This document shows, piece after piece, positions 22,710-39,769 of a stretch of DNA of 64,000 nucleotides. Below the pieces are notes generated by a model. It had not been told where the DNA came from and made no database searches. It was given only the letters and a program-made list of their open reading frames with translations. Location: the NCBI GenBank assembly GCA_039804165.1, contig JBDRZZ010000001.1:154962-218961 (forward strand), in the 5' to 3' direction. The DNA comes from a candidate division WOR-3 bacterium. GTDB lineage: Bacteria; Hydrothermota; UBA3072. A program made the translations under genes and the position numbers. Position 1 is the stretch's first letter. Each line of letters begins with the position of its first letter.

Positions 22710-22738
22710 TTGACTTTTTATAAAATTATTGTTATTAT
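22710..22738 (+). promoter_or_regulatory. Leaderless promoter of the DUF362-polyferredoxin pair
   Basis: TTGACT (22710-22715), 17-base spacer, TATTAT (22733-22738). The ATG at 22747 is eight bases after the -10 box and has no Shine-Dalgarno. Confidence 0.65.
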
Positions 22739-22746
22739 TTATTCAA

Positions 22747-23661
22747 ATGAATAGGAGAGATTTCTTAAAAAAGTTATTTTCTATAGCAGTAATTGCAGGG
22801 GTTTCTTCTACTTTTAAAGGAAAATCTTTATTCGCAGAAGAAAGAAAAGAAGAGGTTTTCCCAGATCTTGTTGCGGTTAAAGGTGGGAGTCCTGAAAAAA
22901 TGTTTGATGAAGGAATAAAAGCTCTTGGAGGGATGAGGAGATTTGTAAAAAAAGGAGAAATTGTTGTAGTAAAGCCAAATATTGCCTGGATTGCAAAACC
23001 TGAGAGTGCGGCGAATACAAATCCAGGATTGGTTAAAAGAATTATTGAGCATTGTTTTTGGGCAGGCGCAAGAAAAGTTTATGTTTTTGACCATACTTGT
23101 GATGACTCTTTTACAACCTATAAGATTAGTGGAATCGAGAGTGTAGCAAAAGAAGCTGGTGCCACTATTGCTTATGCAAATAAAGAGTCTTATTATCAGG
23201 AGGTAGTGATTCCAGAAGCTTATATTCTGAAGAAAGTGAAAGTTCATGAGTTAATTTTAGAAAGCGATGTTTTTATAAATGTTCCTATATTAAAACATCA
23301 TAGTAGCGCGAAGATGACTTCTGCCTTTAAGAATTTAATGGGAGTTGTGTGGGATAGATTTTATTACCATAGAACAGATCTTGATAGATGTATTGCTGAG
23401 TTTCCTTTATATAGAAAACCGAACCTCACAGTTGTGGATGCTTATAATGTGTTAAAAAATGGCCCAAGATTTCGTTCTATGGAGGATGTTTTGAAGAAGG
23501 AGATCCAGCTTTTAGGAGTAGATATTGTAGCTTTGGATGTTGCTTCTTCAAAAATATTAGGGGAGAATCCGGAAAACATAAAATATATAATTTATGGAGA
23601 AAAACTTGGTCTTGGTAAAACTAATCTTGAAGAATTAAATATAAAGAGAATCACCCTCTGA
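22747..23661 (+). CDS. DUF362 protein with Tat signal
   Basis: 304 residues from the ATG at 22747; the frame opens at a TTG at 22729, but the promoter -10 box overlaps that position. The N-terminus MNRRDFLKKLFSIAVIAGVS is a twin-arginine signal (RRDFLK), so a folded, probably cofactor-bearing protein is exported. The DUF362 core is recognisable in VVVKPNIAW, PGLVKRIIEHCFWAGARKVYVFDHT and VPILKHHSSAKMTSAFKNLMG. No cysteine cluster is in this protein; the Fe-S clusters are in the adjacent polyferredoxin. Tat-exported DUF362 proteins often pair with NapH-like ferredoxins, as here. The reaction is unknown. Confidence 0.85.
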   Translation: MNRRDFLKKLFSIAVIAGVSSTFKGKSLFAEERKEEVFPDLVAVKGGSPEKMFDEGIKALGGMRRFVKKGEIVVVKPNIAWIAKPESAANTNPGLVKRIIEHCFWAGARKVYVFDHTCDDSFTTYKISGIESVAKEAGATIAYANKESYYQEVVIPEAYILKKVKVHELILESDVFINVPILKHHSSAKMTSAFKNLMGVVWDRFYYHRTDLDRCIAEFPLYRKPNLTVVDAYNVLKNGPRFRSMEDVLKKEIQLLGVDIVALDVASSKILGENPENIKYIIYGEKLGLGKTNLEELNIKRITL

Positions 23662-23665
23662 TGGA

Positions 23666-25174
23666 ATGGTGAAAAATAAGTTAAGGTTTTTTCGTATTTT
23701 TTTTGAAATTTCTTTTTTTGTTTTTATAACCTCTTCTTTTTTTTGTTTTCCTTTAAGAGGGATACCTTCTAAAACTCAAATAGTTCCTATTTTATTTTCT
23801 GTTTTTAGTAAAGAGTTTTTCTTAAGTATTTTTTTTGTGATTTTTTTTATTTTTGTGACTTTCTTCTTCGGAAGAATATATTGCTCATTTTTTTGTCCTT
23901 TAGGAGGCTTTCAGGATATTTTTATAAGGGTTGGGAGATATATTAAAAAAAATAAATTTAAATATCAGAAGCCTTTGCTTTTTTTCCGTTTTACCATCCT
24001 TTTTTTCTTACTTATAAGTTTGTTTTCTGGTAGTTCTTATTTAATTAGTTGGCTAGATCCCTATAGTATTTTTGGAAAAATGATAAATTATTTAATAAAA
24101 CCAATTTTTGTTGTGATTAATAATTTGGGAGAGTTTTTTCTTAGAAAGAGAGGGTTTTATTTTTTTCGAATATTGGATTTTCCTGACTTTAATCTTTTTA
24201 TTATCTCAATCCTTGGGTTAATTTTAGGTGGAGTTATATATTTTTCTTTAAAAGAAGGAAGGTTTTATTGTAATTCTATCTGCCCTCTTGGGACTTTCTT
24301 AAGTTTGGTTTCTTTTCGGTCCTTATGTAGAATAGAGATAGATAAATTAAGATGCACTTCTTGTGGAATTTGTGAATTCAATTGTAAGGGAAGCTGTATA
24401 AATTCAAAAGAAAAAATAATTGATGATTTTTCTTGTATAAGATGTTTTAATTGCCTTTCTATATGTCCTTTTTCTGCGATTAGATTTAGATTTGTCTCAT
24501 TTATAAAGAAGAGAAAAGAAAAAAATATAGAAAGAAGGAAATTTATTCTTTATTTGACTTATATTTGTTTTTTAGGAATTAATTTGTTTTTGAGAGAAAA
24601 AGGCAAAAAACTTTCTAATTCTTCACCACCTACTCCTCCTGGTAGTATAAGTCTAAAGAGATTTCTTAGTAAATGCACTTCCTGCTATCTATGTGTAAAT
24701 AGATGTCCAACAGGTGTCCTTCGCCCTTCTTTATTTCAATACGGGATTTTCGGAGCTTTCGTTCCTTTTATGGATTTTAGAAGTGGTTATTGTTCTTATG
24801 AGTGTAATGAGTGTTTAAATATATGTCCAACCAATGCAATTTTACCTTTTAGATTGGAAGAGAAAAAGAAAATTCAAATAGGAAGGGTTAATTTCACTCA
24901 AGATTTTTGTGTTGTGTATAAAAACAAAACCAATTGCGGAGCCTGTGCTGAGATATGTCCTACAGAAGCCATCAGAATGGTTCCATATAAGGGTTTATTA
25001 TCAATACCTTTTACAGAGCCCTCAATTTGTGTTGGATGTGGAGGATGTGCGTTTGTTTGCCCGGCAACTCCAAAAGCAATTGTTATAGAGACAAACCTCG
25101 TACATAGAGAAGTAAAGAGCTTTGAGAGATCAAAGAACAAAAAGGAAAACAGAAAAGAAGAATTCCCCTTTTAA
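23666..25174 (+). CDS. NapH-like membrane polyferredoxin
   Basis: 502 residues. Five or so membrane segments lie in the first 200 residues, with two NapH-type motifs (CSFFCPLGGFQD, CNSICPLGTFLS). Cysteine motifs for about five [4Fe-4S] clusters follow: CTSCGICEFNC, CIRCFNCLSICP, CTSCYLCVNRCP, CNECLNICP, CGACAEICP and CVGCGGCAFVCP. A further membrane segment lies between the second and third motif (FILYLTYICFLGINLFL). The protein should move electrons through or along the inner membrane, probably to the exported DUF362 partner five bases upstream. A basic Lys-Glu tail ends it. Donor and acceptor are unknown. Confidence 0.85.
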   Translation: MVKNKLRFFRIFFEISFFVFITSSFFCFPLRGIPSKTQIVPILFSVFSKEFFLSIFFVIFFIFVTFFFGRIYCSFFCPLGGFQDIFIRVGRYIKKNKFKYQKPLLFFRFTILFFLLISLFSGSSYLISWLDPYSIFGKMINYLIKPIFVVINNLGEFFLRKRGFYFFRILDFPDFNLFIISILGLILGGVIYFSLKEGRFYCNSICPLGTFLSLVSFRSLCRIEIDKLRCTSCGICEFNCKGSCINSKEKIIDDFSCIRCFNCLSICPFSAIRFRFVSFIKKRKEKNIERRKFILYLTYICFLGINLFLREKGKKLSNSSPPTPPGSISLKRFLSKCTSCYLCVNRCPTGVLRPSLFQYGIFGAFVPFMDFRSGYCSYECNECLNICPTNAILPFRLEEKKKIQIGRVNFTQDFCVVYKNKTNCGACAEICPTEAIRMVPYKGLLSIPFTEPSICVGCGGCAFVCPATPKAIVIETNLVHREVKSFERSKNKKENRKEEFPF

Positions 25175-36386: not shown

Positions 36387-36472
36387 GGAGGGTTAGTCTA
36401 ATTGGTAAGGCACCGGATTTGAAATCCGGCGGGTTTTATAAACCCTTGGGGGTTCGAGTCCCTCACCCTCCG
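36387..36472 (+). tRNA. tRNA-Ser (anticodon TGA)
   Basis: An 86-base class II tRNA. The acceptor stem is GGAGGGT with ACCCTCC, discriminator G. The anticodon arm is CCGGA-TTTGAAA-TCCGG, giving anticodon TGA. The long variable arm (GGGTTTTATAAACCC) is the mark of tRNA-Ser. The T arm reads GGGGGTTCGAGTCCCTC. CCA is not encoded. Two bases separate it from the next tRNA. Confidence 0.96.
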
Positions 36473-36474
36473 TT

Positions 36475-36564
36475 GGAGAGGTGGCCGAGTGGCCGAAGGC
36501 AACCGATTGCTAATCGGTTGAGGGGTCAAAAGCTCCTCCCAGGGTTCGAATCCCTGCCTCTCCG
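36475..36564 (+). tRNA. tRNA-Ser (anticodon GCT)
   Basis: A 90-base class II tRNA. Acceptor stem GGAGAGG with CCTCTCC, discriminator G. The anticodon arm is ACCGA-TTGCTAA-TCGGT, giving anticodon GCT (AGC/AGU codons). A long variable arm and T loop GTTCGAATC follow. CCA is not encoded. It forms a two-gene serine cluster with the upstream tRNA. Confidence 0.96.
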
Positions 36565-36579
36565 TTAGAAAGGAGAAAA

Positions 36580-38061
36580 ATGCGGAAATTTGCTTTTTTT
36601 ACATTTTTTTTATTATTTTCTTTTAACTGTAAAGGGAGGTCAGAAATGGTGAGAAAACCAGTTTTCGCTGGAAGCTTCTATCCCAGAGATTCTTCCCTAC
36701 TTTCTGGAACAATTGATCAATATTTAAATCAAGCTGAGGTTAAAGTGGAAGAAGAAATTTTTGGATTAGTATCTCCTCACGCAGGTTATGATTATAGTGG
36801 CCTTGTAGCAGCTTTCGGTTATAAAGCATTGAAAGGGAAAAATAAAAAACTTGTGATACTTTTAGGACCATCCCATCGTTACTATGTTAAAGGCTTTTCA
36901 GTTTATGGAGGAGGTAAATGGGAAACACCTCTGGGGGTGGTGGAGATAGATAATGATTTTGCTTCAAGGATTGTTAGTCAGAGTAAATTGATAATTAATG
37001 AACCAGAGGCACATTCTCAAGAACATTCTCTTGAAGTCCAAATACCTTTTTTGCAAAAAATTCTTAATCGAGACTTTAAAATAGTTCCAATTGTTTTTAA
37101 TACTGAAGAGAATTCAAAACTTAAAGAACTTGTGAATGCTTTAGCCAAAGAATTAGAAGGTAGGGAAGACTGGATTATTATAGCTTCTTCAGATCTTTAT
37201 CATGGTTATGACTACGAGGAAGCAAAAGCGGTTACTGAAAGGGTAAATAATTATATAGAGAGGTTAGATTATAGAGGACTGCTTGAGTATGATAGATTGA
37301 AAAGAGAGGAGAGCACTTGTGCTGCTTGTGGTTGTTCTTCTATTGCTGTTTTGCTCCAGGTAATGGAAAAATTGGGGATGAAAAAAGTAAAACTTTTGGC
37401 TAAGACAACTTCAGGAGATGTAACAGGGGAGAAAAAAGGTTATGTTGTGGGTTATGGCAGTTGGGCTTTTTTGAAAGAGAAAAAAGGAGAAGAAGAAAGC
37501 AAAGAGTTGGAAAGTCTTGGATTTAATTTGACCTTAGAGGATAAGAAAATTTTATTAGATATAGCTCGTAAAACGATTGATGAATATGTAAAGAATAATA
37601 AAGTCTTAGAAGTTACGGTGAAAAGTGAGGTTTTAAAAAGACCTTGTGGGGCTTTTGTAACGTTAAAAAAGAAAGGGAATCTACGGGGATGCATTGGGAG
37701 AATAGTTGCAGATGAGCCTTTATACCTTGTAGTAAGAGATATGGCAATTGCCTCAGCTACGGAGGATCCAAGATTTCCTCCATTGGAGGTTTCCGAATTA
37801 AAAGATATTAAGATTGAAATATCTGTTCTTACCCCTATGCAGAAAGTTAATAATGTGGATGAGATAGAAGTTGGAAGAGATGGTCTTATGATAAGGAAAG
37901 GTTTTAGAAGTGGTCTTCTTCTTCCTCAGGTTCCTGTTGAGCAGGGTTGGGATAAGAAAACGTTTCTTGAACATACTTGTTATAAAGCGGGTCTTCCATC
38001 CGATGCGTGGAAAACTTCAGAACTTTGGAAATTTCAAGCAATTGTGTTCTCAGAGGATTAA
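36580..38061 (+). CDS. Memo-AMMECR1 fusion (AmmeMemoRadiSam system) with signal and alternative start
   Basis: 493 residues. Memo-like domain (about 25-300): VSPHAGYDYSG, LGPSHR, AHSQEHSLEVQIPFL, SSDLYHGYDY and STCAACGCSS, with the conserved histidines. AMMECR1 domain (about 320-490): LRGCIGRIVADEPLY and DPRFPPL. The two are separate proteins in many genomes and associate with a radical-SAM enzyme that is absent here; function unknown. The first ATG (36580, AAAGGAG upstream) gives a lipoprotein-like signal ending FSFNC (Cys17). A second in-frame ATG at 36646 has its own GGGAGGT five bases upstream and would give a cytosolic form starting MVRKPVFAGSFYP. Confidence 0.88.
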   Translation: MRKFAFFTFFLLFSFNCKGRSEMVRKPVFAGSFYPRDSSLLSGTIDQYLNQAEVKVEEEIFGLVSPHAGYDYSGLVAAFGYKALKGKNKKLVILLGPSHRYYVKGFSVYGGGKWETPLGVVEIDNDFASRIVSQSKLIINEPEAHSQEHSLEVQIPFLQKILNRDFKIVPIVFNTEENSKLKELVNALAKELEGREDWIIIASSDLYHGYDYEEAKAVTERVNNYIERLDYRGLLEYDRLKREESTCAACGCSSIAVLLQVMEKLGMKKVKLLAKTTSGDVTGEKKGYVVGYGSWAFLKEKKGEEESKELESLGFNLTLEDKKILLDIARKTIDEYVKNNKVLEVTVKSEVLKRPCGAFVTLKKKGNLRGCIGRIVADEPLYLVVRDMAIASATEDPRFPPLEVSELKDIKIEISVLTPMQKVNNVDEIEVGRDGLMIRKGFRSGLLLPQVPVEQGWDKKTFLEHTCYKAGLPSDAWKTSELWKFQAIVFSED

Positions 38062-38290: not shown

Positions 38291-39769
38291 CTATTTTATA
38301 AGTTTAAAAGTCCCATTAGTTATGAGATAAAAACGAATTCCTTTTGATGCTTTAGAGAGATTGATAGAACCTGCAGTTAATGGAATATTATCTAATTTTT
38401 TGTTTGGATTTTCTAATAATTCACTCATTAAAATTGCGGCGTCATAACCAAGGCAGGCATATCTATCGGGTTCTTTTCTAAAGAGAAACTTAAACTCTTC
38501 TAAGAATGATTCAGACGGATTAAAAGGATTATCTGTTATTATAATTCCTTCCAAAGCACTTGGATCGACTTGTTGTTTAAAGATCTTTTCGGATTTCCAA
38601 CTGTCTGTACCAAGAATTTGGGATTTTATTCCACAATATTTTATATGACTGGCAATTGCAGGAACATCTTGGGTGCTTGCAGGAATATATATGGCTTCAG
38701 GTTCTGTGGATTTTATTCTGTTTAATTCGCTTTGGAAATCTCTTTCTCCTTCTCCATATGAAATAGAACTTACTATTTTCCCCCCAAGTTCTAAGATTTT
38801 ATCAGAAAATACACTTTCAAAAGTCTCTCCATAATCGGAGCGAGGATATAATATTGAAAAGGTTCTAAGACCTAACTCCTTAACAGCGTATTCTGCCATA
38901 GCAATAGCCTGTTGTTGGATCGTTTTATTAATTATAAAAACTTTTGGACCAACAGAGTCTATGAATTCCTTTGTTGCAGTTGGAGATATAAAAGGGATTC
39001 CTTTATAATCGGCAACGCAGGCAATAGCAAAACTATTTTTAGAAAGAAGAGGCCCAATAATTCCAGACACTTTTTCGTTTTCTATTAATCTTACTGCTTC
39101 TTTATAGCTTTTTAAAGGATCTTCTCTTGTATCTACATATATTGGAATAAACCTTTCTTTTGCCCCTATTTCTATTCCATTTTTTACAGAGGTTCCTTCT
39201 TCTATATAACTTCCTGAGAGAGGAAGTAATACTCCGACTTTCTTTTTCCCCTTAGGATAAGTAATATATTGGGCCTTTCTTGCATATTCGCTTTTTGGAA
39301 ATTCTATTATAATTTCTTCAAAGTATTTCTTACTTTCTTCTGTTCTCCCTTCACTTTGTAACTTCCTGCCGATTGTATATAAAAGAAAAGGCTTGAGTTC
39401 TTGGGATGCATAAAGAAGAGATTTCTTTAAAGAATTTTCGTCTACCAAGATTGCCAATTCTTTTACACTCTCGGTTGTATTTATTCCATATTTACTTGCA
39501 GCCACATAGTTTACAAGAGCTTCTCCATTATTTCCAATCGCTTTATTAATTTCTCCAAGGTAAAAGAAGGAATTTCCCATTAGTTCTCTTGGAGGATTTG
39601 TCTTAGTTACCTCTGCAAATAACTCTTTTGCTTTTTTGTAATTCTGATCTGTATAAGCTTTCATTGCTTTTTCATATAACTTTTTGCTATCCTCAGGGGG
39701 GCTCACCTCTGGGATGCAATTTAAGATAAGGAATAAAATCCCTATAGGAATTGATAATTTTGCCCTCAT
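38291..39769 (-). CDS. LpoA-like lipoprotein: TPR plus periplasmic-binding domain
   Basis: 492 residues. A lipoprotein signal ends at Cys18 (LFLILNC). Residues 25-170 form helical TPR-like repeats (NYKKAKELFAEVTKTNP, SFFYLGEINKAIGNNGEALV). Residues 175-490 are a Peripla_BP_6 type fold (KVGVLLPLSGSYIEEG, VSGIIGPLLSKNSFAIA, ILYPRSDYGETF). This two-part layout is that of the outer-membrane activator LpoA of PBP1A, and of LivK-like binding proteins. No branched-chain transporter genes are near. Role inferred: cell-wall synthase activation or ligand sensing. Confidence 0.72.
   Translation of the reverse strand: MRAKLSIPIGILFLILNCIPEVSPPEDSKKLYEKAMKAYTDQNYKKAKELFAEVTKTNPPRELMGNSFFYLGEINKAIGNNGEALVNYVAASKYGINTTESVKELAILVDENSLKKSLLYASQELKPFLLYTIGRKLQSEGRTEESKKYFEEIIIEFPKSEYARKAQYITYPKGKKKVGVLLPLSGSYIEEGTSVKNGIEIGAKERFIPIYVDTREDPLKSYKEAVRLIENEKVSGIIGPLLSKNSFAIACVADYKGIPFISPTATKEFIDSVGPKVFIINKTIQQQAIAMAEYAVKELGLRTFSILYPRSDYGETFESVFSDKILELGGKIVSSISYGEGERDFQSELNRIKSTEPEAIYIPASTQDVPAIASHIKYCGIKSQILGTDSWKSEKIFKQQVDPSALEGIIITDNPFNPSESFLEEFKFLFRKEPDRYACLGYDAAILMSELLENPNKKLDNIPLTAGSINLSKASKGIRFYLITNGTFKLIK

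Follow-up and report, generated by a model that had tools for sequence, protein, structure and literature searches.

Memo and AMMECR1 proteins range from archaea to humans. In the AmmeMemoRadiSam system they accompany a radical SAM enzyme, and the three members are covered by the profiles TIGR04335 (AMMECR1), TIGR04336 (Memo) and TIGR04337 (radical SAM). Memo-Ammecr1 systems are the subject of Burroughs et al. (2019; cited in PMC7159879), and the biochemical role of MEMO1 is described as open in PMC11081632. Judged by titles and the openings of abstracts, the term AmmeMemoRadiSam otherwise appears in papers on other matters. Starts that drop a signal have been described in Salmonella: according to PMC11005335, PagC/OmpX have an in-frame downstream start yielding a short form without the signal peptide, and a short form that may lose its outer-membrane place has been suggested for the lipoprotein YfhG.

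We analyzed a window of 64,000 nucleotides from a candidate division WOR-3 bacterium, which contains an ORF of 493 amino acids (see the table below). In this ORF, AmmeMemoRadiSam system proteins B (Memo) and A (AMMECR1) are fused. In particular, residues 27–294 match the Memo domain PF01875 with 204.3 bits (cut-off 27), and residues 327–490 match the AMMECR1 domain PF01871. The system protein B profile TIGR04336 is matched over positions 1–270 of 270 with 250.9 bits (cut-off 26), and the system protein A profile TIGR04335 with 191.5 bits (cut-off 99). The translation also contains LRGCIG, which we take to be a motif of the AMMECR1/TIGR04335 family. In 30 exported proteins, the source's among them, His67 and His99 never vary and Cys250 hardly does; presumably, these residues correspond to the metal ligands of human MEMO1. 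An AlphaFold model made from the 30 proteins (mean pLDDT 92.7) has a lone helix at residues 2–16, followed by a dip in confidence and then by the Memo fold, which is confident from about residue 21. Foldseek matched the model to MEMO1 (3bcz/7l5c) and to archaeal AMMECR1-like proteins (1zq7/1vaj).

The first-pass annotation had noticed two in-frame ATGs at the head of this gene, each behind its own ribosome site. Re-read from the sequence, the coordinates, the motifs AAAGGAG and GGGAGGT, and the spacing of exactly 22 codons are all exact. The first site is followed by a spacer of four A's and the internal one by five bases (CAGAA). The 3' end of the source genome's own 16S rRNA is ...GGATCACCTCCTTTCT, and hence the anti-Shine-Dalgarno (anti-SD) sequence is canonical. 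The long form begins with MRKFAFFTFFLLFSFNC-KGRSE-MVRKPVFAGSFYP. The second ATG had been called the normal Memo start, and this agrees with the homology to solved human MEMO1, which opens at residue 25, two residues past this ATG. As the modelled fold also lies after the signal helix, the short form would be the whole protein and, by the model, is a complete fold.

Features of the Memo-AMMECR1 locus (positions in the window; energies are those of the duplex with the anti-SD)
Feature	Position	Strand	Basis
tRNA-Ser (TGA), upstream neighbour	36387..36472	+	ARAGORN
tRNA-Ser (GCT)	36474..36565	+	ARAGORN; 3' end 14 nt before the first ATG
Ribosome site AAAGGAG, proposed long (exported) form	36569..36575	+	sequence; duplex energy -8.7 kcal/mol (ATG 36580)
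Memo-AMMECR1 fusion, one stop, two proposed starts	36580..38061	+	PF01875, PF01871, TIGR04336, TIGR04335, Foldseek
Predicted signal peptide region and short linker, MRKFAFFTFFLLFSFNC-KGRSE, long form only	36580..36645	+	sequence; model helix 2-16
C17, putative lipidated cysteine	36628-36630	+	sequence
Internal ribosome site GGGAGGT, proposed short (cytosolic) form	36634..36640	+	sequence; duplex energy -12.0 kcal/mol (ATG 36646)
Internal in-frame start ATG, proposed short form (MVRKPVFAGSFYP)	36646..36648	+	sequence; MEMO1 homology

The first ATG had been proposed to open a lipoprotein-like signal, and a basic MRK, a hydrophobic core and FSFNC with C17 are found behind it. The lipobox consensus is [LVI][ASTVI][GAS]C, after a basic n-region and a hydrophobic core. 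The box at C17, SFNC, is preceded by both of these elements and is atypical in having N at -1, a feature shared by five of the six genomes of the source family, the source included. In the same window, the ORF at 38291-39769 on the minus strand has a lipoprotein-like start ending in LILNC, likewise with Asn just before the putative lipidated cysteine. Asn at this position may be accepted in the group to which the source bacterium belongs.

The tandem of tRNA-Ser genes directly precedes the fusion gene in all six genomes of the source family (L002-L007). This means that the 5' end of the Memo-AMMECR1 mRNA may be set through tRNA processing (region 36387-36579). The leader in the window folds somewhat better than its shuffles (z -2.0), and the internal ribosome site is paired in this fold. 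We considered and dropped a switch between the starts by a conserved RNA structure, as the six family members have no common structure (-0.18 kcal/mol).

We consider it likely that this dual-start gene supplies both an exported and a cytosolic Memo-AMMECR1, placing the AmmeMemoRadiSam system in two compartments. One mRNA would carry two initiation sites. Initiation at ATG 36580 would yield a signal-bearing, probably lipid-anchored, exported protein, and initiation at ATG 36646 the same two domains without the signal, kept in the cytosol. The radical SAM enzyme would come from separate genes and Memo-AMMECR1 from a single gene by way of its two starts, with each Memo form serving the radical SAM enzyme of its own compartment. 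From sequence features we infer the production of both forms, where each of them resides, the lipidation and the pairing with the matching radical SAM enzyme.

To see how relatives compare, we searched 100 genomes of the phylum, including the source's. There was a match in 95 and a usable Memo in 93; the seven genomes without one are G023, G056, G064, G068, G071, G077 and G099. Distant matches of 23-27% identity, stand-alone AMMECR1 matches and second pieces of split genes were left out of the reading. From the 93 genomes we read 104 Memo N-termini; by hydropathy (cut 2.0) and motif, 57 carry an export signal and 47 do not. G059 (1.82) was counted as exported by eye for its hydrophobic stretch, Cys and strong internal start; the signal of G009 is above the cut but short and doubtful, and that of G085 is likewise short and doubtful. 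Internal starts were counted if ATG or GTG, leaving the TTG of G085 (-10.0) uncounted. In 46 exported genes, from 46 genomes in 15 families of the phylum, an in-frame ATG past the hydrophobic core lies behind a ribosome site; hence, relatives keep both the signal and the internal start. A single dual gene is found in 45 genomes, an exported-only gene with a separate cytosolic one in ten, a dual and an exported-only gene in G015, and only cytosolic Memo in 37. The earlier suggestion that one gene makes both forms gains support from this distribution, as only 11 exported genes have one start, each accompanied by another Memo gene.

The same N-termini could be read as using the internal start alone, with the upstream hydrophobic extension untranslated or fortuitous and the protein cytosolic. 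Indeed, most relatives have their stronger ribosome site at the internal start, and the internal Met is placed where cytosolic Memo genes begin. The site of the first start is often weak (median -2.4 across exported genes), and the long, exported form may thus be a minor product. However, a hydrophobic stretch is kept behind the upstream start in all 57 genes, with a Cys after it in 45 (loose search), whereas the in-frame sequence ahead of the 47 cytosolic genes, where scorable, has a hydropathy of at most 0.81. Moreover, of the 15 close pairs tried, two were too divergent, and in the other 13 the changes within the signal region concentrate on the third codon position (40/28/57, p 0.006; one pair includes bases before its start). 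Exclusive use of the internal start is, in our opinion, highly unlikely.

In favour of two products is the relation between the internal start and the other Memo genes of the same genome. The exported genes that are the sole Memo source found or, in G015, the sole possible cytosolic source all have an internal start behind a ribosome site (46/46). By contrast, an internal ATG or GTG with a site was found in 0/11 exported genes whose genome holds another potential cytosolic-form Memo gene (G010, where this second gene is in two pieces, G012, G015, G021, G027, G032, G036, G065, G070, G085 and G089); the difference has a Fisher p-value of 5e-12, which ignores kinship. As, in this phylum, the internal start is absent just where another gene could supply the short form, this suggests that the short form is wanted rather than noise. 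The 11 genes also argue against use of the internal start alone, since, in its absence, their signal is presumably translated. In one of them, the exported copy of G027 (L123, G027:C34), AAAGGAGG is kept and is followed by ATC instead of ATG, with a separate cytosolic Memo present in the genome. This copy possibly carries a fossil internal start.

The composition of the internal sites indicates that the internal start is not accidental. The 46 internal starts have a median duplex energy of -11.05 kcal/mol. For the remaining in-frame ATGs of the 57 exported genes, 380 in number, the median is -2.2, and only 8% of them reach -6.5. Depending on the lineage, the site is encoded through varied codons and residues (KGR, KEG, KGG, LEV, KEV, GRD). 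Random synonymous recoding of the same residues yields a mean of -6.2, compared with -10.1 observed, with 13 of the 46 genes individually below 0.05. Secreted-like control ORFs were drawn from the window and the fetched loci by the presence of a hydrophobic stretch at the N-terminus. Among these, a comparable internal start occurs in 2/99, one hit being a radical SAM ORF; radical SAM ORFs make up 48 of the set, which includes some Omnitrophota-type radical SAM loci. The 10 genomes of the f11/f30 group lack the Memo-proximal Met, and their internal start, with its own GGAG, lies about eight residues further upstream, within the end of the hydrophobic core, behind a weaker site (-6.5 to -6.9). 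The cut-off of -6.5 was chosen with knowledge of these weak sites; at a cut-off of -8, the internal start is retained in 36/46 genes, compared with 0/11, and in 36/36 without the f11/f30 group.

These sites bear on a second alternative, namely that the long form alone is made, with the internal site either pausing the ribosome to help targeting or left over from a cytosolic ancestor. For E. coli, Shine-Dalgarno-like pausing behind signal sequences has been suggested, and the G027 copy, with its site and no ATG, would suit such a role. On the other hand, all 46 dual genes place the site for an in-frame start, 43 of them at 4-9 nt ahead of it (crude motif search), and the f11/f30 genes do so at a different place. 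Moreover, the 11 split copies, which should need targeting equally, lack the internal start. Taken together with the Omnitrophota-type genes described below, this makes production of the long form alone very unlikely.

If Memo is present in two compartments, the location of the radical SAM partner is of interest. Among the matches listed, TIGR04337 matches were found in 97/100 genomes, with scores above the curated cut-off in 94; the listed matches reach down to about 270 bits, with full lists for 26 genomes, and all signal-bearing copies identified score above 300 bits. Many genomes have, among these matches, one copy with an N-terminal signal and one without. The signal is Tat-like in the source's family and a Sec/membrane-type stretch in others. 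Short signals in L075, L173, L198, L211 and L213, genes that automatic calling had placed with the cytosolic ones, were relabelled as Sec/membrane type, and the signal-bearing call for G033 depends on this. Tat substrates have a twin-arginine motif ahead of a hydrophobic stretch. In the source genome, three matches are above the cut-off, on C8, C16 and C9; the C8 copy is Tat-like (MNRREFLKTL) and the C16 copy is signal-less. The C8 copy (L064) is a predicted Tat substrate, having the twin-arginine motif in MNRREFLKTLSVLPLIGL before the hydrophobic stretch.

Among the matches listed, a signal-bearing TIGR04337 copy occurs in 50/54 genomes with exported Memo and in 0/33 genomes with cytosolic Memo only (Fisher 6e-20, kinship ignored); the exceptions, with exported Memo and no such copy found in these matches, are G008, G012, G030 and G052. 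The comparison omits G043, G092 and G093 (no usable radical SAM match), G088 (gene cut by a contig end), and G031 and G084 (no tree rows). This tracking of exported Memo by signal-bearing partners again argues against a Memo protein made solely from the internal start.

Sec-exported iron-sulphur enzymes are unusual, and therefore the membrane-type radical SAM copies may be anchored rather than exported. In one signal-bearing radical SAM gene (L190, G037:C2), there is an in-frame ATG past the hydrophobic core with a site-like stretch of -8.8 kcal/mol; possibly, the partner enzyme is also dual-start in this case. In addition, at 22729-25174 of the window, a Tat-like ORF (MNRRDFLKKLF) lies directly before a Cys-rich, ferredoxin-like ORF with hydrophobic stretches, which makes this region a further candidate for an exported iron-sulphur unit.

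Exported fused Memo genes also occur in a set that we call Omnitrophota-type, comprising 14 genes, of which 13 come from loci whose titles name Omnitrophota or Omnitrophica and one from a locus titled bacterium. None of these genes has the internal start (0/14). A separate unfused Memo is found in 10/14 of the genomes; nine of these are readable and none has a hydrophobic N-terminus. A signal-bearing radical SAM gene is present in 13/14 genomes and adjoins the exported Memo gene in 12/14. One of the Omnitrophota-type genes (in L038) contains AGGAGG with no start codon after it, which would fit a long form made alone; against this, the 14 copies need targeting as much as the dual ones and do without an internal start. 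In G104, G106, G110 and G113, whose genome completeness is not given, a second Memo was not found, so that each has one exported Memo and no internal start; three of the four hold a signal-less radical SAM gene. These genomes are possible counter-examples to the gene-split rule.

By a third alternative, the co-occurrence would reflect shared ancestry, with the signals on both proteins and the two starts unrelated to two compartments. Besides the four genomes that may break the rule, it is consistent with labels that are strongly clustered on the Memo tree (built without L133 and L167, which were too short), giving few independent contrasts. Still, the dual label needs eight changes on this tree, at least four of which well-supported branches make unavoidable. 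The dual G059 (83% complete, no further Memo found) groups with exported-only copies of f5 and f14. This provides a contrast within f5 (G059 dual vs. G010/G065 split), and another is provided by the sister groups f10 (dual) and f19 (cytosolic). The independent contrasts for gene splitting number two to three, all in the expected direction and too few for significance. For the radical SAM partner, tree-based pairs yield three contrasts at branches with good support, and their direction is nearly always the expected one. We regard shared ancestry as an unlikely explanation.

Returning to the two-compartment reading, a broader form of it is more tentative. A complete AmmeMemoRadiSam pathway, including a Tat- or Sec-type radical SAM enzyme, would operate outside the cytosol in two or more candidate phyla, alongside the cytosolic one, with the two Memo pools coming either from two genes or from one gene with two starts, and with lineages switching between these solutions. 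We would put the chances of this slightly below even. If the system does have two compartments, then whatever it acts on must occur, or be dealt with, on both sides of the membrane, and this would narrow the range of possible substrates. The case also provides a way to test dual translation starts by evolutionary comparison, and ordinary annotation would list just one of the two products.

In a literature search that took in a minority of subscription papers, we found neither dual starts nor exported forms described for Memo, AMMECR1 or the radical SAM partner. Compared with the known AmmeMemoRadiSam system, the locus is similar in having the B and A proteins, here fused, and a radical SAM member in the genome; unlike it, the locus has a predicted exported form with dual starts, and the radical SAM genes are paired as signal-bearing and signal-less. 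Human MEMO1 (3bcz, 7l5c, 7kq8) shares the modelled fold, with a TM-score of about 0.83 by target length and 23-24% identity, and, to our knowledge, has neither the AMMECR1 fusion nor a signal. The Salmonella proteoforms of PagC/OmpX and YfhG are similar in that one gene has an in-frame downstream start, with a short form that lacks the signal (PagC/OmpX) or may lose its outer-membrane place (YfhG). However, they come from profiling of one species, whereas the internal start described here is kept across 15 families and is absent where the cytosolic form could come from another gene. Thus, signal-dropping dual starts are already known in bacteria, and what appears to be new is a phylum-wide case in which they alternate with gene splitting.
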